35,619 nt of DNA from Cryomorphaceae bacterium. Lineage in GTDB: Bacteria; Bacteroidota; Bacteroidia; Flavobacteriales; Schleiferiaceae. The stretch spans positions 1 to 35,619 of the forward strand of contig JAFIEY010000175.1 of NCBI GenBank assembly GCA_020832345.1, given 5' to 3'. Below, one piece after another: positions 22,284-30,120 of this stretch (position 1 is the stretch's first letter; each line of letters begins with the position of its first letter). The notes under the pieces are model-generated. The model was not told the DNA's origin. It did not search any database and worked only from the letters and a program-made list of their open reading frames with translations. Both the position numbers and the translations under genes were made by a program.

Positions 22284-22371
22284 ATTGTTGTCGCGTACCG
22301 TTGGGTAATTCAATAGCAAATGTACACAACAAAACGCCTGAAAGGGCAATTGGGTTTATCACATTTTTCAC

Positions 22372-22379
22372 CATCTTTG
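22372..22379 (+). promoter_or_regulatory. -7 promoter box for folP-cdaA
   Basis: CATCTTTG, one mismatch from TAnnTTTG, 18 nt before the folP ATG. Confidence 0.45.
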
Positions 22380-22397
22380 CCAAAAGTTTCTTTTGAG

Positions 22398-23243
22398 ATG
22401 CAAAAAAATACCCCAACACATACCATCAGGCTGAATAACCGATTGTTGGATCTTTCAACGCCACGAGTAATGGGCATCATCAATGTTACCCCGGATTCTT
22501 TTTATTCAGGTAGCAGGAAAACATCACAACGCGAGATTTTTGATAAAGCGGAACAGATGATTTCTGAAGGGGTGGATATTTTGGATATTGGTGGACAATC
22601 TACTCGCCCCGGGGCGCAATTACTCAGTGAGGTAGAAGAATGGGATAGGCTTCGCGATGTTTTACCTGATCTGCGAAAATCATTTCCCGATGTGGGTATT
22701 TCTCTCGATACTTTTTATGCCGGGGTAGCTAAACGAGGTGCAGATGAAGGTGTAGATATCATCAATGACGTGAGTGGGGGTAACCTCGATGCAGAAATGT
22801 TTGATGTTGTGGGGCAACTAAGACTTCCTTATATTCTGATGCATTCGCGGGGTAATGCCCAAACCATGACCGACCAGACAGAATACGATAATGTAGTTGA
22901 GGATGTAATTTCTGATCTGCACCAAAAAGTATATAAGTTGCGTCATATAGGTGTGGCAGATATTATTTTAGATCCGGGGTTTGGATTTGCAAAAACGACT
23001 GCTCAAAGTTTTGAGATAATGGCAAACCTCAATGCATTTCATATTTTTGGATTGCCTATTTTAGTCGGGATTTCCAGAAAATCGATGGTCTATAAAACCC
23101 TTGGCGTTGAACCGGAAGAAAGTTTACACGGAACAACTGCATTACATTTTTGGTGCATTTCGCGTGGCGTGTGTATCTTGCGCGTACACGATGTGCGTCC
23201 TGCCAAAGACGCGATAAAAATGTATATGGCTTTACAAACATGA
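22398..23243 (+). CDS. folP: Dihydropteroate synthase
   Basis: Condenses p-aminobenzoate with dihydropterin pyrophosphate in folate synthesis; the target of sulfonamides. The 281-aa TIM-barrel protein shows MGIINVTPDSFYSGSR (25-40), DIGGQSTRPGA (63-73), and GISRKSM near the C-terminus. The start is ATG 22398; the longer frame to 22320 reads through the promoter box. Its TGA overlaps the ATG of cdaA in an ATGA overlap, so the two are translationally coupled. Its position next to cdaA and divergent from the doxX gene is a familiar Bacteroidota arrangement. Confidence 0.95.
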   Translation: MQKNTPTHTIRLNNRLLDLSTPRVMGIINVTPDSFYSGSRKTSQREIFDKAEQMISEGVDILDIGGQSTRPGAQLLSEVEEWDRLRDVLPDLRKSFPDVGISLDTFYAGVAKRGADEGVDIINDVSGGNLDAEMFDVVGQLRLPYILMHSRGNAQTMTDQTEYDNVVEDVISDLHQKVYKLRHIGVADIILDPGFGFAKTTAQSFEIMANLNAFHIFGLPILVGISRKSMVYKTLGVEPEESLHGTTALHFWCISRGVCILRVHDVRPAKDAIKMYMALQT

Positions 23244-24010
23244 TGGAATATTTGCGCATTATCGATTTGGGACTGGTGGTTCTGGTGATAGGACTGGTCT
23301 TTTTTTATGTTCGGCGAACCGTGCTGGTGAATTTGTTTTTACTCATCATTGCACTGTTTTTTGCTGCTCAGTTGTTTGATTATTGGAATTTAAAGTTGTT
23401 TTCCGGACTTGTTGGATGGAGTTTGCAGCTTTCTATTATTGCTTTACTAATTGTTTTTCAGCCCGAAATGCGAAAAATATTTTTGCAATTTGCCTCCATA
23501 GACCTCGGATTAAAAACCATTATTAAAGGTAAATTTTGGGCTAATGAACGTAAAAAACCATTGGTTTTCAATTGGGAATCTGTTATTACAGCAATTCAAA
23601 ATATGCAGGAACAGAGGATTGGTGCCATATTTGTTTTTGCTAGAAAAAATGCTTTATCATACTATGCTGAAAGTGGGGTGTTGATGGATGCGGAAATCAA
23701 TGCGCGTTTGTTGGAGGCCATTTTTTTACCTCAAAGTCCGTTGCACGACGGGGCAGTCATCATCAAAAACAATAGGATACTGGCTGCAAGTGCTATTTTG
23801 CCGGTGAGTGAGGGTCAGGCTATTTCCGGTCGTAAGGGACTAAGACACCGTGCGGCAATTGGTTTGGTAGAGCGAACCGATGCTGTTGCTGTTGTGGTAA
23901 GTGAAGAAACCGGTCAAATTTTCATGGCCCACGATGACTACATTGAAGAGGATATTTCCATCGAACACTTGCGCAAGCGATTCCAAAGGCTTTTTTCAGA
24001 AGAACAGTAA
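23240..24010 (+). CDS. cdaA: Diadenylate cyclase CdaA (c-di-AMP synthase)
   Basis: Membrane-bound enzyme making c-di-AMP from two ATP. The 256-aa protein has three N-terminal membrane helices (about 7-25, 29-46, 56-75) and a DisA_N-type cyclase domain (about 110-225) with the catalytic motifs LHDGAVII (DGA at 170-172) and GLRHRAAIG (RHR at 202-204). It starts at ATG 23240 within the folP stop (ATGA); a second ATG at 23243 is also possible. No CdaR/YbbR regulator or c-di-AMP phosphodiesterase lies next to it here. A small hairpin at 24014-24033 follows the stop. Confidence 0.95.
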   Translation: MMEYLRIIDLGLVVLVIGLVFFYVRRTVLVNLFLLIIALFFAAQLFDYWNLKLFSGLVGWSLQLSIIALLIVFQPEMRKIFLQFASIDLGLKTIIKGKFWANERKKPLVFNWESVITAIQNMQEQRIGAIFVFARKNALSYYAESGVLMDAEINARLLEAIFLPQSPLHDGAVIIKNNRILAASAILPVSEGQAISGRKGLRHRAAIGLVERTDAVAVVVSEETGQIFMAHDDYIEEDISIEHLRKRFQRLFSEEQ

Positions 24011-24033: not shown

Positions 24034-24058
24034 GGTTTGAATTGAAAAACACGCAACC

Positions 24059-24110
24059 ATAAAACCTAAACCCTCTAAACCCCCTAAACTATCTAAACCC
24101 CCTAACCCCC
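24059..24110. repeat. Degenerate CTAAACCCC-type tandem repeat
   Basis: About five imperfect units of roughly 9-10 bp (CCTAAACCCT, CTAAACCCC, CTAAACTAT, CTAAACCCC, CTAACCCC) between convergent cdaA and the GH26-like gene. The composition is C-rich on this strand with almost no G. Origin unknown; replication slippage is the simplest explanation. Confidence 0.6.
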
Positions 24111-25288
24111 TACAAACTCAAACCATCACCACCATTTTTTAATATCGAATCCCTTGCGTTAAAATAATATTTTAAAACTTCAAGGGTTTCTTGATCGTAT
24201 AAAAAGGTCCAATCCAATATTTTTTTTGTAGAAATGAAATCCTCTAGGGAATGGAAAAAAAGGATGCTTTTGATCATGGGGTATTGCGTGTGAATTTTTT
24301 GCAATGCGTCGGCGTACCAACCGGCCCGATGACCTCCATACGAGAGAGAACCAAATTCAGAAATCATAATGGGTTTGTTGTACAATGACAATGCTTCATA
24401 GCTTGTCTGAATGATTTCTTCAAATGTCCACCACTGACTCCATCCTACCACTTTTCCGTAATTTAAACCTGTAAGTCCTATCCAATCCACACAATCGTGG
24501 CCTGGGTAAAACATAAATTCATTGTCGTACGCCGGATGAGGTGACCAAACCCACAAAACATGGCTTAAATTGGCGGCTTGGAATTTTTGATGCACATGCC
24601 TCCAGGCCGCTATATAGGTTTCAGGTGTATTGTTGTGCGGCCCCCAGGGATACCGATAAGGGTCATTCATTTCGTGACCAAAACGCAGGAAAAATGGCGA
24701 ATCAAAATTTTTAACTCGCTCAATCCATTTGTCAATATAATCGTCGAACACACCTTGGGCAATAAGTGCCAAGCCGTTCATATTTACATTGTCTTTCCCC
24801 TTGAGTTGCGGGTATTTATTATTATCAAATACGTCCAACCAGGGTTCCCAGGTAATCATCGGTATGGAACCCAAATCGCGGATGGCGTTCACTTCCAGTA
24901 GCGGGAATTGATGCTTTTTTTTACTGCCCCAAGCTGTGTAAACCTGGATGATGGGGAGTCTTGTGTTTAACGAATCTTCTAATGCCAGTATTCTCCGCAC
25001 ACCATCCTTGTATTTATCATCATAAATGCCAAATAAAATGGTATCGGGGTTTTTTAATAATAATGAACTGTTCCGGTAGGGTTCAAGCCATTCCAGCTCA
25101 CCATATCGTTGATTGTTTTTGGTTATCCAGTGTTTTTCTAAACTTGTCCAAAAAGTGCCAACTTTTACCAAAGCATCGTTGATGGTGGTTACTGACCGAT
25201 TGCTAAAATAACTGGTCATTACAAATATGATTAATGCCAATAAAAGTGCGGCCAATACAACTACGATTCTAATAATCTTTGTCTTCAT
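24110..25288 (-). CDS. GH26-like membrane-anchored glycoside hydrolase
   Basis: Predicted extracytoplasmic glycosidase acting on a beta-linked polymer. The 392-aa protein has an N-terminal membrane anchor or uncleaved signal (about 6-26) and a TIM-barrel domain with GH26 features: general acid/base candidate Glu206 in LRFGHEMNDPYRYPWG and nucleophile candidate Glu311 in PIMISEFGS. Known GH26 members cleave beta-mannans, xylans or mixed-linkage glucans, so the family does not fix the substrate. It overlaps the upstream GT2 synthase gene by 20 bp and is the last gene of the three-gene operon. By analogy with BcsZ in cellulose and PgaB in PNAG export, it may trim the polymer made by that synthase. 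Confidence 0.8.
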   Translation of the reverse strand: MKTKIIRIVVVLAALLLALIIFVMTSYFSNRSVTTINDALVKVGTFWTSLEKHWITKNNQRYGELEWLEPYRNSSLLLKNPDTILFGIYDDKYKDGVRRILALEDSLNTRLPIIQVYTAWGSKKKHQFPLLEVNAIRDLGSIPMITWEPWLDVFDNNKYPQLKGKDNVNMNGLALIAQGVFDDYIDKWIERVKNFDSPFFLRFGHEMNDPYRYPWGPHNNTPETYIAAWRHVHQKFQAANLSHVLWVWSPHPAYDNEFMFYPGHDCVDWIGLTGLNYGKVVGWSQWWTFEEIIQTSYEALSLYNKPIMISEFGSLSYGGHRAGWYADALQKIHTQYPMIKSILFFHSLEDFISTKKILDWTFLYDQETLEVLKYYFNARDSILKNGGDGLSL

Positions 25289-26882
25289 CCGGGTTTAGTT
25301 TGTTAATTTCTTCAATGTCAATATCTTTCCAGGGTTCGGCTGCGTCAAGGTTGCGACTTTGCCATGCGGCATATATTCCGCCTAAGGTCATTACAAAGGC
25401 GATCGCGGCAAAAAATATCATCCCCCAGGTTTCCCATCGGGTAAAGGCAATTTCACCTTCAGGGGTAAAATGCATTCTTTTGATTATAACCCAAATAACT
25501 GTTAGTATAAAAAATAATGCAATGTAAACATGGGGACGAATAAAAGGGGTGAAGCCTTTCACGGCTTGTTTTGCGGTGGGAATATAAGGAATTTTACCGT
25601 TGATAAGTGAAAGTAGGAAACCTTGCAGAAATACGGGCCAACAAACGAATTTTAAAATGGTTCCTTTTAGGTGTAGCCCAAATTCTGTTTTAGGATGGGA
25701 TAGAAATCGCTGACAATATAAATAAATCACTGTGGCCGCTAAAGCAAGCGGCACCCAGTGGGTCAAAAATTCGGTAAATTCAATATCGATGGGGATTACA
25801 TCAAACCAAAGGGTGAAATAGGGTAAAATAAGGAATAGGAACATGGTAAGCCCCGAAATGTAATAGGTGCTAATACCAAAGTAGGTAAGTCTTTGAAGGG
25901 TGGATAAACCATTCCAGGTTTTTGGCAAATCTGAAAAGAGAATTTCGTGTACCCCACGCGACCATTTTAGTTGTTGCTTGCAAAACGAACCCAAATCCTC
26001 CGGCACCAAACCCCTGGTTACAATCACCGGGTGGTAAATACTTTTCCACCCCTTTCCGTGCAAGCGAATGGCGGTCATCATGTCCTCTGCCAATCCTATG
26101 GCGTGGCCACCGATGCTTTCGAGGGCTTCGCGTCTAAATGTGCAATTTGCCCCAATGGCAACGGAACTGCCCAAACCATATAAACCCATCAGTGTGGGGC
26201 CGTAAAATCCATAGGTTTGTTCGGCTGCTCCCTGGGCCACAAAGCTTCGGTATTGGTTGTAATAGCCTTGTGAAACCTGAACAAATCCCACATCAGGGTT
26301 GGTGAAAAATCCCAGCACTTCATCAAAGAAATTGGGAAAAGGAATGTGGTCCGGATCCATCACCAAAATGAAATCTTCTTTTGTCTTTTGTAAAGCAGCG
26401 TTGATTTTACCCGCTTTTGCTCCGGGAATTCCCACCAACTCTAACCAAACCGCGCCGTGTTTTTCAGCTAGTTCTTTAAAAGCTGGGTCTTGAGTGTCGT
26501 CCAAAAGGTAGGTGGTGTGTGGGTAGCGAATATTTTTACAAGCTTCAAGTGTTTTGTCAAACATGCTTAGTGGTTCGCCGGGAGAACTGGTGGTGAAAAT
26601 GGCCACACTTAGATCCTTTGGGGCTTTTTTCTTTCGCGGTTTGTTAATGGCGATATAGGAAATCCACATAATAATCATTCGGAAAATACTCCACCAAAAA
26701 ATAAGGGTGAGGATGAAAAATAGCCAAAACTGTCCGGGTTCTTGTTTAAACCACCACATTCCAAAGTTTACCACATTTATTAATCCGCCAAAAACCAAAA
26801 TGACGAGAATAAAAGAACTCCAAGCACTTGGTTTTCGTGCCTCGTGAAATTTCCAGAATTCGGGATCAAAGTTGCTATTCAA
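25269..26882 (-). CDS. Processive GT2 polysaccharide synthase, cellulose-synthase-like
   Basis: Inner-membrane family 2 glycosyltransferase expected to build and extrude a polysaccharide from nucleotide sugar. The 537-aa protein has two N-terminal helices (about 22-42, 52-74), a cytosolic GT-A domain with DDTQD (128-132), DPD (176-178), AED (265-267) and QQLKW (303-307), then about five further helices and a short acidic tail. These are the D, DxD, (T)ED and Q(Q/R)xRW motifs of cellulose, hyaluronan and PNAG synthases, with Lys replacing the usual Arg. There is no PilZ domain. The start is the TTG at 26880-26882 overlapping the previous gene's TGA (TTGA); no ATG is usable without losing the first helix. 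Confidence 0.87.
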   Translation of the reverse strand: MNSNFDPEFWKFHEARKPSAWSSFILVILVFGGLINVVNFGMWWFKQEPGQFWLFFILTLIFWWSIFRMIIMWISYIAINKPRKKKAPKDLSVAIFTTSSPGEPLSMFDKTLEACKNIRYPHTTYLLDDTQDPAFKELAEKHGAVWLELVGIPGAKAGKINAALQKTKEDFILVMDPDHIPFPNFFDEVLGFFTNPDVGFVQVSQGYYNQYRSFVAQGAAEQTYGFYGPTLMGLYGLGSSVAIGANCTFRREALESIGGHAIGLAEDMMTAIRLHGKGWKSIYHPVIVTRGLVPEDLGSFCKQQLKWSRGVHEILFSDLPKTWNGLSTLQRLTYFGISTYYISGLTMFLFLILPYFTLWFDVIPIDIEFTEFLTHWVPLALAATVIYLYCQRFLSHPKTEFGLHLKGTILKFVCWPVFLQGFLLSLINGKIPYIPTAKQAVKGFTPFIRPHVYIALFFILTVIWVIIKRMHFTPEGEIAFTRWETWGMIFFAAIAFVMTLGGIYAAWQSRNLDAAEPWKDIDIEEINKLNPDEDKDY

Positions 26883-28369
26883 TTTCCAAGGGGTTTTTTT
26901 AATCCAATTTGGTGGGCGGTGAAAAAGAAAATTCTTCGATAGTCGTAGGTAAAGAATAGTTTTTCTTTATTTTTCGCACCAAATCCCAGCGTTAAATTAA
27001 ATTCAATTGGGGTAAATGTTATGGGGGAAAAATATGTTGTTGATATGACCTCACCTTGGCCGTTGATATCTGCAAATAAACTTGGGTTGTCTGCAATAGC
27101 ATACAATGAACGAGATATTTGTGTGCTGATTTGAATTTTTTCCAGTGAAATACTCATTTTCCCCAATCCTGCGTGTATCCATTGATTTCTCGGGGTGAAA
27201 TAGGGCTCATAAATTCCCGGTAGCGCTTCGTCAAAGGGGGTGTTGACCGATAAATCCTCGATGGGCGAAAATGTGTTTGTTGTGGCAGTTGCAAAATTAA
27301 TTGAGTAACCCAGCGAAAAGTTCACCACCTCATTTTGGTAAATGGAATGCATAAAATAAGCATAAGAAGTAGAAAGGACGCCTCCGTCTGGAAATTGCCA
27401 AAGCATTTGTCCTAATTTGGCATTTCGCTTTTCACCTACACCATAAGTAATGGAGAACCCATAGTCGTTGTAGAGAAATGGATTTGATAGACTGGCAGAA
27501 GTGAAAAGGTATGGCACCCTATTAAAGCTGAATTCAGCCTTGGTGGTTTTGGATATTGTTTGTTCAATAGATGATTGAAAGGTGATAAATCTTTTTTCAC
27601 TGATGCTGAAAAATCCGGTTCCGAAGGTGAGTTTAGATTTGGTCTGTGATATTAAGATGTTGTTGTTGACGTGAGCGCGAATGCCGAGAAGCTGTCTGTT
27701 GGTTTCATGCTCAAGGTTTGTCGAAAATCCCCGTACCGACAATCCACCTTCGAGATGAAGATACCGATGGAAAAATTTTCCGCCTTGGACTCCCACCTGC
27801 AGATTCTGTACAATTTGATCATCGATATAATATTGCGTTTCTGCAACTCCTTTGGTGGAAATGATATTTTTTAAGAAAAGTTTCAATTCGCGAATTTCTT
27901 CTCTTGGGTGGGTAAACGAAAATTCGAGAAAATCAATGTGCTTTTTAGCTGATTTGGTTTTCCCTTCCCATAAATCCATCCAGGCTAAAAGGGCAACCGC
28001 TTCCGTGTTATCAGGTTGAAAGATTCTGTAGTTTTCCAAAACTTGCCTGCTACGCTTGTGTTTCCCGATGTTAAACAGAAATTTACCGTAATCCAATTTG
28101 ATGTCATGGTTTTGCGGTTGCAATTCCATTGCAGATTGATAAAGACTATCGGCTTTTTTGTTTTGTCCTAATGCTGTTTTGACCTGAGCAAACAACCATT
28201 GTTCGTAAAAGCCTAATTCTGAATGATGAACGCTAAGGATGCTATCGGCAACCTCGTAGTTCTTTTTTGTGAAATTTGCTCTGGCTATGCCTTCCCAATC
28301 GCTATCCGATTGTGCATGTATAGCAAATTGCTGAAACAGAAAAGTTGACAAAAGCGCCACGAGCCTCAT
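26879..28369 (-). CDS. TPR plus outer-membrane beta-barrel protein (BcsC/PgaA/YaiO-like)
   Basis: Predicted outer-membrane protein with periplasmic TPR repeats, first gene of the operon. The 496-aa protein has a signal peptide (about 1-19, cut after HAQ), helical TPR-like repeats (about 25-170; for example ADSLYQSAMELQPQNHDIKLDYGKFLF) and a C-terminal region (about 190-496) of alternating aromatic and polar strands typical of a YaiO-type beta-barrel. The same layout, with more TPRs, occurs in cellulose exporter BcsC and PNAG exporter PgaA. It would guide and export the polymer of the GT2 synthase that follows with a 4-bp overlap. Export function is inferred from context. Confidence 0.8.
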   Translation of the reverse strand: MRLVALLSTFLFQQFAIHAQSDSDWEGIARANFTKKNYEVADSILSVHHSELGFYEQWLFAQVKTALGQNKKADSLYQSAMELQPQNHDIKLDYGKFLFNIGKHKRSRQVLENYRIFQPDNTEAVALLAWMDLWEGKTKSAKKHIDFLEFSFTHPREEIRELKLFLKNIISTKGVAETQYYIDDQIVQNLQVGVQGGKFFHRYLHLEGGLSVRGFSTNLEHETNRQLLGIRAHVNNNILISQTKSKLTFGTGFFSISEKRFITFQSSIEQTISKTTKAEFSFNRVPYLFTSASLSNPFLYNDYGFSITYGVGEKRNAKLGQMLWQFPDGGVLSTSYAYFMHSIYQNEVVNFSLGYSINFATATTNTFSPIEDLSVNTPFDEALPGIYEPYFTPRNQWIHAGLGKMSISLEKIQISTQISRSLYAIADNPSLFADINGQGEVISTTYFSPITFTPIEFNLTLGFGAKNKEKLFFTYDYRRIFFFTAHQIGLKKPLGN

Positions 28370-28387
28370 TATGAAATATTATAACCT

Positions 28388-28395
28388 CAAATATA
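28388..28395 (-). promoter_or_regulatory. -7 promoter box for the polysaccharide operon
   Basis: TATATTTG on the minus strand, 18 nt before the ATG of the TPR/barrel gene, matching TAnnTTTG. It would drive the whole three-gene operon (28369 down to 24110). Confidence 0.55.
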
Positions 28396-28814: not shown

Positions 28815-29534
28815 CTAAATTAAGTCAAACAATGTTTTGGTTCCTAAGGGCTGAGCAGATATAAATCCCTCTCCAGCTTCGGTATAAATCAAACGTCCCA
28901 TATCCTTGGCACGATAGGTTATGCTTTCAAAAAAGTTTTTCGAGGATATTGCGGTTTGTGGTTCTTCACTGTTGGCTTGGTAAAACTGAGAAGCGTAGGC
29001 ACGCACAGATTTGACCTTTATGTCCAAATATCCCGTTACATCCATGATGATTTCGGGCTGAATGTTCCAAAACTGAATGTAGTGAAAAATGGTTTTTGGT
29101 CGGTGGGCTTGTTGTATTTGCCCTTTAAACGCACTGGGAATTTTTTGCAACCCGGCTTTAAATCCTGCATCGCGGCATAATTCAGCGGCGTGACCGTGGT
29201 CAGGATGTCGGTCGGTGGGTGCGTTAATAAGGAGCATTTGCGGCTGAAAGTATCTGATCCACTTGATGACTTCTAATTGGGAAGCCTCGTCGTTTCGGAT
29301 GCTTCCATCTTTTAAAAAGGCTTGAGCGCGATGTTTTACGCCTAAAATTTTGGCGGCTTCTTCTGCTTCTTGGTCGCGGAGGTCTGCGCTGCCGCGTGTG
29401 CCGAGCTCGCCACGGGTAAGATCAAGTATGGCAACAGACTTACCGGATGCACTAAATTTTGCCAAAGAGCCACCGCAGCCGAGTTCTACATCGTCCGGGT
29501 GTGCCCCTATAGCCAAAATATCTACTTTTTGCAT
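28815..29534 (-). CDS. bshB1: Bacillithiol biosynthesis deacetylase BshB1
   Basis: Zinc-dependent PIG-L/LmbE-family deacetylase that removes the acetyl group from GlcNAc-malate in bacillithiol synthesis. The 239-aa protein has the metal-site AHPDDVELGCGG (11-22), TRGELGTRG, and the second histidine motif HPDHGHAA. The segments YIQFWNIQPEIIMDV and the C-terminal KDMGRLIYTEAGEGF match BshB1 as found in Bacteroidota (from recall). The start is ATG 29534; the longer frame to 29627 lies within the preceding peroxidase gene. It lies 4 nt after gpx. No bshA or bshC is in the window. Confidence 0.92.
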   Translation of the reverse strand: MQKVDILAIGAHPDDVELGCGGSLAKFSASGKSVAILDLTRGELGTRGSADLRDQEAEEAAKILGVKHRAQAFLKDGSIRNDEASQLEVIKWIRYFQPQMLLINAPTDRHPDHGHAAELCRDAGFKAGLQKIPSAFKGQIQQAHRPKTIFHYIQFWNIQPEIIMDVTGYLDIKVKSVRAYASQFYQANSEEPQTAISSKNFFESITYRAKDMGRLIYTEAGEGFISAQPLGTKTLFDLI

Positions 29535-29538
29535 GAAT

Positions 29539-30120
29539 TTATTTTCCTTCTGCAAAGGAAACGATTTCTTCCGAAATAGGCGATACTTTAGATGAAAAAT
29601 CTCTGACGAGGTTTCCGTTTTCGTCAATTAAAAATTTGTGGAAATTCCAGGCGACCTTGTAATCGTCCTTTCCATTGAGATTTTTCTGGGTCAACCACTG
29701 GTAAATGGGATGTATTTCTTTGCCCTTGACGTCAATTTTGCTCATCATGGGGAAGGTGACCCCGTAATTTTTTTGACAAAAAGCTTTGATGTCTTCTTCG
29801 GTGCCCGGTTCTTGTCCCATAAAATTATTGGATGGAAAGCCGATGATGGTAAAGTTATCTCCGCCCAGTTTTTCGTAAAGTTCTTGAAGTTGCTCATACT
29901 GAGAAGTGAATCCGCATTTTGAGGCAACATTGACAATTAGAATGCGCTTTCCTTTAAGGTTGGACATGGGGAAATCATTTCCATCAATGTCTTTGGCGGA
30001 AAAGTCGTAGAAGGTTTTGGTAGCGTTGCTCATTTCGGCAAAGGTTTTTTCGGGTTGAACGGTTTCATTACAGGACAAAAGCGATGTAACTGCGAGGGTA
30101 AAAAAGATTTTCTTTATCAT
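29539..30120 (-). CDS. Glutathione-peroxidase-family lipoprotein
   Basis: Thiol peroxidase of the glutathione peroxidase family, probably on the cell envelope. The 193-aa protein has a lipoprotein signal (LLSC, lipidated Cys17), a catalytic domain from about residue 36, peroxidatic Cys69 (NVASKCGFTSQYEQL), GFPSNNFMGQEPG, and WNFHKFLID (158-166) with the conserved Trp and Asn. Cys115 could be the resolving cysteine of thioredoxin-dependent relatives. The organism's low-molecular-weight thiol is probably bacillithiol (bshB1 follows after 4 nt), so the true reductant is likely thioredoxin or a bacillithiol system rather than glutathione. It heads the gpx-bshB1-membrane protein operon. Confidence 0.92.
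   Translation of the reverse strand: MIKKIFFTLAVTSLLSCNETVQPEKTFAEMSNATKTFYDFSAKDIDGNDFPMSNLKGKRILIVNVASKCGFTSQYEQLQELYEKLGGDNFTIIGFPSNNFMGQEPGTEEDIKAFCQKNYGVTFPMMSKIDVKGKEIHPIYQWLTQKNLNGKDDYKVAWNFHKFLIDENGNLVRDFSSKVSPISEEIVSFAEGK

Follow-up and report, generated by a model that had tools for sequence, protein, structure and literature searches.

Synthase-dependent exopolysaccharide (EPS) systems are built around a membrane glycosyltransferase of family 2 (GT2) with the fold and motifs of a processive synthase. The GT2 is accompanied by an outer-membrane beta-barrel exporter linked to tetratricopeptide repeats (TPR) and by a polymer-modifying hydrolase encoded in the same operon. Control by cyclic di-GMP (c-di-GMP) is common in these systems, though not universal. 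Here we describe a three-gene locus from a Cryomorphaceae bacterium (assembly GCA_020832345.1), found in positions 1 to 35,619 of contig JAFIEY010000175.1; this whole stretch of 35,619 nucleotides is referred to as the window. The locus encodes a predicted TPR/beta-barrel exporter, a GT2, and a lichenase-like glycoside hydrolase of family 26 (GH26). With moderate confidence, we regard the trio as a synthase-dependent EPS secretion system in which a UDP-hexose, most likely UDP-glucose, would be polymerized to a beta-glucan, trimmed by the GH26, and exported by the TPR-porin without c-di-GMP gating. No description of a TPR-barrel/GT2/GH26 operon was found in the open-licence literature, judged from listings.

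The Bcs cellulose system shares with the locus its GT2 fold (best Foldseek match of the window GT2: BcsA 4p00, E 2.4e-27, TMq 0.79), a TPR-porin (9b8a, TMq 0.74), and an operon glycosidase. The DxD, ED, and KAG motifs and the gating-loop Thr and Lys are also common to both. The window differs in having no PilZ match in the Pfam scan of the GT2, no BcsB in the gene run, a GH26 rather than a GH8, QxxKW rather than QxxRW, and about 146 TPR residues. It also differs in its genome, rated 100% complete, where no GGDEF match was found by a search that was positive in 8 of 14 control genomes. Neither the synthase nor the genome therefore shows these marks of c-di-GMP control.

BgsA of S. meliloti (bgsBA) and RiGT2 of Romboutsia are likewise BcsA-like GT2s, and a lichenase-like hydrolase would suit a mixed-linkage glucan. 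In a quick tree with long branches, the S. meliloti and A. fabrum GT2s, which we take to be BgsA from their position beside an adaptor gene, group with BcsA and away from the window GT2. BgsA binds c-di-GMP (PMC5567048). A PilZ domain is part of RiGT2, whose paper does not mention GH26 in its main text (PMC10374906). The export system for poly-N-acetylglucosamine (PNAG; PgaA/PgaB/PgaC) combines a TPR-barrel exporter, a GT2, and a hydrolase domain, but PgaC is placed far from the window GT2 at the end of a very long branch, and the trio has no deacetylase. CtLic26A, the GH26 lichenase of C. thermocellum, is the best sequence match of the third protein, with both catalytic Glu residues aligned. 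It is a degradative enzyme, whereas the window GH26 is predicted to be membrane-anchored and is linked to a synthase. A GH26 is also reported from an actinomycete cluster of the Wzx/Wzy type, which is another kind of system (PMC13390465).

The three genes lie on the minus strand (Table 1) and overlap by 4 bp and then by 20 bp, as read from the open reading frames (ORFs) of the window. Each product exceeds the cut-off of a Pfam family: TPR_19 (33.3 vs. 25 bits), Glyco_trans_2_3 (72.5 vs. 27 bits), and Glyco_hydro_26 (41.8 vs. 20.2 bits). The original prediction, made from the DNA letters, had proposed a compact exporter, synthase, and hydrolase set encoded by three genes with these overlaps. 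The layout is borne out by the ORFs and Pfam, and the set is supported by conservation of the genes and by models of a BcsC-like barrel and a BcsA-like GT2.

A contig scan for relatives of the GT2 gave at least 593 stretches and at least 522 relatives, of which the best 80 of 522 were analyzed. These comprise 72 unfused triplet-clade GT2s (L078-L149) and eight fused or solo GT2s (L150-L157) that stay outside the triplet counts. A TPR/barrel gene directly upstream of the GT2 and a same-strand GH26 gene are present in 65 of the 72 named loci, so the arrangement is more than chance. The GH26 gene, which should have lain elsewhere in relatives if the predicted system were wrong, thus stays with the TPR-GT2 pair, mostly in Bacteroidota. 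Some exceptions are due to contig edges: L131, L135, and L137 end before the GH26, and L087 starts at an edge. The TPR match of L148 is weak (3e-6).

The exporter was modeled by AlphaFold with 49 homologues (pLDDT 92.4), and DSSP assigns 17 long strands after the TPR helices. No Pfam barrel family matches the barrel part over cut-off. The top Foldseek match in the Protein Data Bank (PDB) is E. coli BcsC 9b8a (E 2e-15); 9b8h and 6tzk are also matched, followed by PelBC and then the outer-membrane secretin 4y25. Identities to these matches are about 10%, which points to a shared fold with BcsC, PelBC, and 4y25 and not to close kinship. The barrel part models as the expected pore, here a BcsC-like one, and the protein is predicted to be a TPR-linked outer-membrane exporter.

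The GT2 has 11 sequence matches in the PDB, all to cellulose synthases (BcsA, E 7e-34), and its model reaches a pLDDT of 92.8 (40 sequences). It contains KAG, DPDH, AED, YIPTAK, and QQLKW; the 40-sequence alignment behind the invariant positions of Table 1 (A7) takes in four fused relatives and L063. YIPTAK resembles the gating-loop motif FxVTxK (PMC6821405, PMC10592267). Fold and motifs are those of a predicted membrane-bound processive synthase. A short glycolipid or oligosaccharide as the product, instead of a long polymer, would agree with a weak match of the GT2 to the HpnI model (49 bits vs. a cut-off of 310). This is highly improbable because the best structural matches are channel-forming synthases, the gating-loop-like Thr and Lys are invariant, and barrel and glycosidase genes are linked to the GT2. 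Grouping with single-addition transferases, the outcome that would have spoken against the prediction, was not seen; the GT2 models as BcsA.

The GH26 combines a Pfam match over cut-off with a predicted catalytic Glu pair, which all 67 aligned GH26 rows contain. Besides the window, 66 of the 72 loci contribute rows, the others being L128 (a fragment), three loci at contig ends (L131, L135, and L137), and two that were not listed (L084 and L097). Read by eye, the N-terminus is hydrophobic, and Cys is absent from the first 60 residues. The GH26 would supply the polymer-modifying hydrolase of the operon. Its PDB matches are CtLic26A (endoglucanase H, E 8e-30), a beta-1,3-xylanase (3e-7), and mannanases (2e-5 or weaker). 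A profile of nine family GH26s scored CtLic26A at 160 bits and AlXyn26A at 58, followed by an unnamed GH26 at 52 and named mannanases at no more than 47. The protein is therefore far nearer in sequence to CtLic26A than to mannanases. GH26 lichenases form their own branch beside two mannanase branches in a tree with only two lichenase sequences (PMC6556568).

The original prediction had left beta-mannan, xylan, and mixed-linkage glucan side by side. The sequence matches of the GH26 favor a lichenase-type beta-glucan substrate and make mannan and xylan less favored. A beta-mannan, with GDP-mannose as the donor and a GH26 mannanase as the trimming enzyme, would agree with the fact that characterized GH26 enzymes are mostly mannanases (PMC6556568, PMC13390465). 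It is nevertheless improbable, as the GH26 matches the lichenase with an E-value 24 orders of magnitude below that of the best mannanase, the PDB sequence matches of the GT2 are cellulose synthases, and the GT2 keeps a DD motif whose second Asp lies near uracil in CesA8.

In the proposed system, the inner-membrane GT2 would polymerize UDP-hexose, most likely UDP-glucose, and thread the polymer through its own channel, with no gating by c-di-GMP. A beta-glucan, possibly mixed-linkage, is the likeliest product because a BcsA-like GT2 is paired with a lichenase-like GH26. With a predicted anchor in the inner membrane and a periplasmic catalytic domain, the GH26 would trim or release the chain, which the TPR-porin would guide through the outer membrane. 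The locus itself displays a conserved gene order, predicted folds, catalytic motifs, and the lichenase-like GH26; donor, linkage, GH26 substrate, export, and surface location of the polymer are what we infer.

A related proposal is that the product is cellulose or a 1,3-beta-glucan and that the GH26 merely resembles a lichenase, acting as a BcsZ-like editing glucanase. The GT2 fails the NCBIfam CelA equivalog cut-off (160.6 vs. 699.1 bits), carries QxxKW, and has neither a PilZ match nor BcsB in the run, and lichenases cut pure cellulose poorly. These points make the proposal unlikely, though not negligibly so, since the GT2 and exporter folds are BcsA-like and BcsC-like and an analogous TPR protein/GT2/GH8 triplet, with GH8 in place of GH26, exists in one genus (g83; L064-L066). 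In L065, one of these GH8 triplets, a PgaA-barrel match is seen under cut-off. The existence of the GH8 triplet also speaks for the system favored here.

Several observations weigh against the beta-glucan system favored here. Described beta-glucan synthases have QxxRW, whose Arg holds the diphosphate in CesA8 and BcsA and abolishes activity when replaced by Ala (PMC10592267), where the window GT2 has QxxKW; the Lys would keep the charge. The GT2 is placed outside the BcsA and BgsA group, in the same quick tree whose long reference branches leave deep placements unsure and not relied on. A BcsB- or HlyD-like adaptor is absent from the three-gene run, and the TPR part is short for a span of the periplasm. 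Family GH26 consists largely of mannanases, and a distant best match cannot give the substrate. Among the relatives, L109, L142, and L149 have a GT2 and a GH26 with no TPR partner detected, the GH26 of L084 is divided between two ORFs, and the context of the acid/base Glu looks degenerate by eye in the fused L050, L052, and L053.

In a sister clade, and in favor of the proposed system, GT2 and GH26 are joined in one polypeptide of about 1250 amino acids (aa), and Pfam shows both domains in L054 and L055 (867 aa). L058 and L062 are split into GT2 and GH26 with other borders. Fused proteins of about 1200-1300 aa with an extra C-terminal stretch are found in L051, L054, L056, L057, L059, L060, L061, and L153. 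The fused genes mostly adjoin an ORF of ~440 aa, which in L054 has a weak GH2_C TIM-barrel match. L151 and L154-L157 (Pontibacter) are fusion-clade GT2s of about 600 aa for which no GH26 was detected.

The distribution of the triplet is patchy. In the window's order, 1 of 395 genomes has it (the window alone); the figures are 2 of 395 for the class (the window and G249), 3 of 378 for the family of L122, and 11 of 370 for the Algoriphagus family. Besides the window, one close triplet was found among 296 genomes of its phylum, in Algoriphagus boritolerans (G249; GT2 identity 57%). Outside Bacteroidota, by record title and tree, related loci are present in Gemmatimonadota (L136, L139), Ignavibacteriota (L128), Fibrobacterota (L148, L149), and Myxococcota (Sorangium, L142). 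L090 is a metagenome-assembled genome (MAG) labelled Chlorobiota, and L106, labelled Saccharibacteria, is suspected to be misbinned. A close GT2 match is absent from four congeners of the host, with only E 1.3e-10 in G002. The host genome (G000) measures 4.03 Mb, against 2.3-2.6 Mb for the four congeners, which suggests, together with the missing GT2, acquisition in the host lineage.

A linked cytidine diphosphate (CDP)-6-deoxyhexose pathway, made up of RfbF, RfbG, and a short-chain dehydrogenase/reductase (SDR), accompanies the locus in 24 of the 72 relatives, three of them on less direct evidence. In one subclade the three cassette genes sit between GT2 and GH26. L122 (Flavobacterium aciduliphilum) encodes a glucose-1-phosphate cytidylyltransferase (RfbF; TIGR02623, 381 bits vs. 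a cut-off of 300) and a CDP-glucose 4,6-dehydratase (RfbG; TIGR02622, 476 vs. 278 bits; 1rkx, E 7e-118). The nearest solved relatives of its SDR are UDP-glucose 4-epimerase and GDP-6-deoxy-4-hexulose reductase. Cassette genes of other loci were recognized by likeness to those of L122. The cassette is upstream of the TPR gene in L126, L141, and L148, follows the GH26 in L142, and lies about 5 to 8 kb upstream on the same contig in L149. L135 has rfbF alone before the contig end. In the genomes of L131 and L137, a different contig carries the cassette and, after it, a GH26 truncated by the end of the contig; these contigs presumably join those of the GT2.

Cassette and cassette-free GT2s differ by majority at nine columns (42, 100, 115, 129, 151, 206, 261, 393, and 421). 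In a stricter scan of 20 cassette and 47 cassette-free rows, column 100 alone has disjoint residues: S in cassette-free loci and A, M, or T in cassette loci. Taken together, the two positions of the DD motif read DS, DG, or TD in cassette loci and DD elsewhere. In a larger set, DD is broken in 21/21 cassette loci and intact in 49/49 cassette-free rows, the window included, and the same is true of Ser100. L131, L137, and L149, first set aside for unclear flanks, all have a broken DD and a cassette in the genome. Twelve further loci, seven of them repeats, added five new cases that all fit: L182 and L183 have a cassette and DS, and L184, L190, and L191 are cassette-free with DD. In total, all 26 DD-broken GT2s go with a cassette, and all 52 DD-intact GT2s are without an adjoining one.

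In poplar CesA8, the STVDP motif of beta-strand 1 has a groove in which the uridine lies, and a ring nitrogen of uracil comes within hydrogen-bond distance of Asp294 in the DDG motif (PMC10592267). A 63-residue probe aligns end to end and ungapped with the CesA8 chain (6wlb 271-333). With Ser258 taken as the first STVDP residue, Asp294 is the second Asp of DD and matches Asp129 of the window GT2. Loss of the equivalent of Asp129 would fit a CDP donor because cytosine is without the N3 hydrogen. Two loci within the cassette clade of the tree, L118 and L123, have no cassette; RfbF over cut-off was not found in their genomes, which are MAGs. At columns 100 and 129, and at no others of the nine, they match cassette-free loci; six columns are like the cassette clade, and 151 is mixed. 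This is an apparent reversal to DD and Ser after a seeming loss of the cassette.

The pattern suggests a natural switch from UDP to CDP donors among the relatives. A joint reading, to which we give an even chance, makes the window a UDP-type member of a synthase family whose donor nucleotide changed more than once. GT2s of cassette loci would use CDP-6-deoxyhexose to build a 6-deoxyhexose polymer, which a GH26 suited to it would cleave. Their uracil-reading DD would have been replaced, and loss of the pathway would have restored the UDP-type motif. Alternatively, cassette and broken DD may coincide through shared ancestry, or the cassette may supply a decoration, with no switch of donor. The tree holds only three independent pairs (sign test p 0.25, too small to decide), and most of the nine columns look like lineage marks, so this explanation has some standing. 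We consider it possible but less probable, since L118 and L123 agree with cassette-free loci only at columns 100 and 129, the DD replacements differ by lineage, the disjoint-set scan yields column 100 alone, the set-aside and new loci fit (3/3 and 5/5), and the GT2 is the sole glycosyltransferase among the six genes of L122.

Two other explanations of the pattern were rejected. The GT2s of eighteen genomes that carry RfbF over cut-off and a cassette-free triplet keep DD, so RfbF anywhere in the genome does not explain the motif. Six of these were inspected (L173-L178), and no such GT2 or GH26 is near RfbF; in four of them, an ORF of 435-438 aa beside rfbG is presumably RfbH. The GH26 has no column that tracks the cassette, as the only majority difference, at column 358, shows no reversal in L118 and L123.

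The window GT2 has both DD and Ser100. In its genome, nine matches to the RfbG model are all far under cut-off, and there is no RfbF at E 1e-40. By the donor-switch reading, the window is therefore of the UDP type, and the use of CDP-sugars made elsewhere in the genome was rejected. The cassette-type GT2s, if their donor is read correctly, would to our knowledge be the first cellulose-type processive synthases to use a CDP-sugar. No report of such use was found in the open-licence literature, judged from titles and abstracts. The cassette relatives with their base-pocket change, the fused GT2-GH26 relatives, and the lack of a GGDEF match in the genome extend the original prediction.

A single promoter box had also been predicted for the trio. 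The box TATATTTG exists, but as evidence it is weak: 49 TAnnTTTG boxes occur across the window with both strands counted, no TTG was found within 30 bases upstream of TATATTTG, and the box was rejected as a strong argument. Downstream, the GH26 gene ends convergently with a DisA_N-type (DAC) gene (23150-24010), which adjoins a pterin-binding (FolP-like) gene (22320-23243). Short CCCTAAAC-like repeats lie at 24050-24110, between the convergent stop codons of the DAC and GH26 genes. Upstream of the trio and on the same strand are genes for a PIG-L family deacetylase and a glutathione peroxidase (28815-29627 and 29539-30120), which are probably unrelated.

Table 1. Features of the three-gene locus, in positions of the window.
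Feature	Position	Strand	Details and basis
TPR + beta-barrel outer-membrane exporter (predicted)	26879..28369	-	496 aa, ATG start; Pfam TPR_19, AlphaFold, Foldseek
TPR helices of exporter, residues about 25-170	27860-28297	-	AlphaFold model
Barrel strands of exporter, residues about 173-494	26888-27853	-	AlphaFold model
Processive-type GT2 polysaccharide synthase (predicted)	25269..26882	-	537 aa, TTG start; Pfam, PDB sequence matches, model
GT2 Ser100 codon, loop after beta-strand 1 (TTSSPGEP), inferred base pocket	26583..26585	-	Disjoint-set column scan
GT2 DD motif, Asp128-Asp129	26496..26501	-	Alignment to BcsA 179-180; ungapped probe alignment
GT2 DxD motif, Asp176-Pro-Asp178	26349..26357	-	Both Asp invariant, 17/17 and 40/40 sequences
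GT2 QQLKW (QxxKW)	25962..25976	-	Gln303, Lys306, Trp307 invariant in 40 sequences
GT2 gating-loop-like YIPTAK (cf. FxVTxK)	25569..25586	-	Thr436, Lys438 invariant
Membrane-anchored lichenase-like GH26 (predicted)	24110..25288	-	392 aa, ATG start; Pfam, best PDB match CtLic26A
GH26 Glu206 (GHEMND), predicted acid/base	24671..24673	-	Aligned with HE motif of Lic26A
GH26 Glu311 (ISEFGS), predicted nucleophile	24356..24358	-	Aligned with AEFAS of Lic26A
Promoter-like box TATATTTG (TAnnTTTG)	28388..28395	-	26 bases 5' of the exporter start codon; weak evidence

With this locus, an uncharacterized class joins the known machines that make and export polymers, as a relative of the bacterial cellulose system seen for the most part in Bacteroidota. 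Its hydrolase is lichenase-like, and c-di-GMP input has left no sign in this host. The family is a natural experiment: where a CDP-6-deoxyhexose pathway is linked, the synthase differs at two inferred base-pocket sites from relatives that have no linked pathway. If the donor switch is true, the choice of donor nucleotide in cellulose-type synthases would be directly testable by exchanging the two sites, and the cassette loci would point to unknown 6-deoxyhexose polymers. A donor switch in a polymer-making enzyme may thus be readable from genomes.

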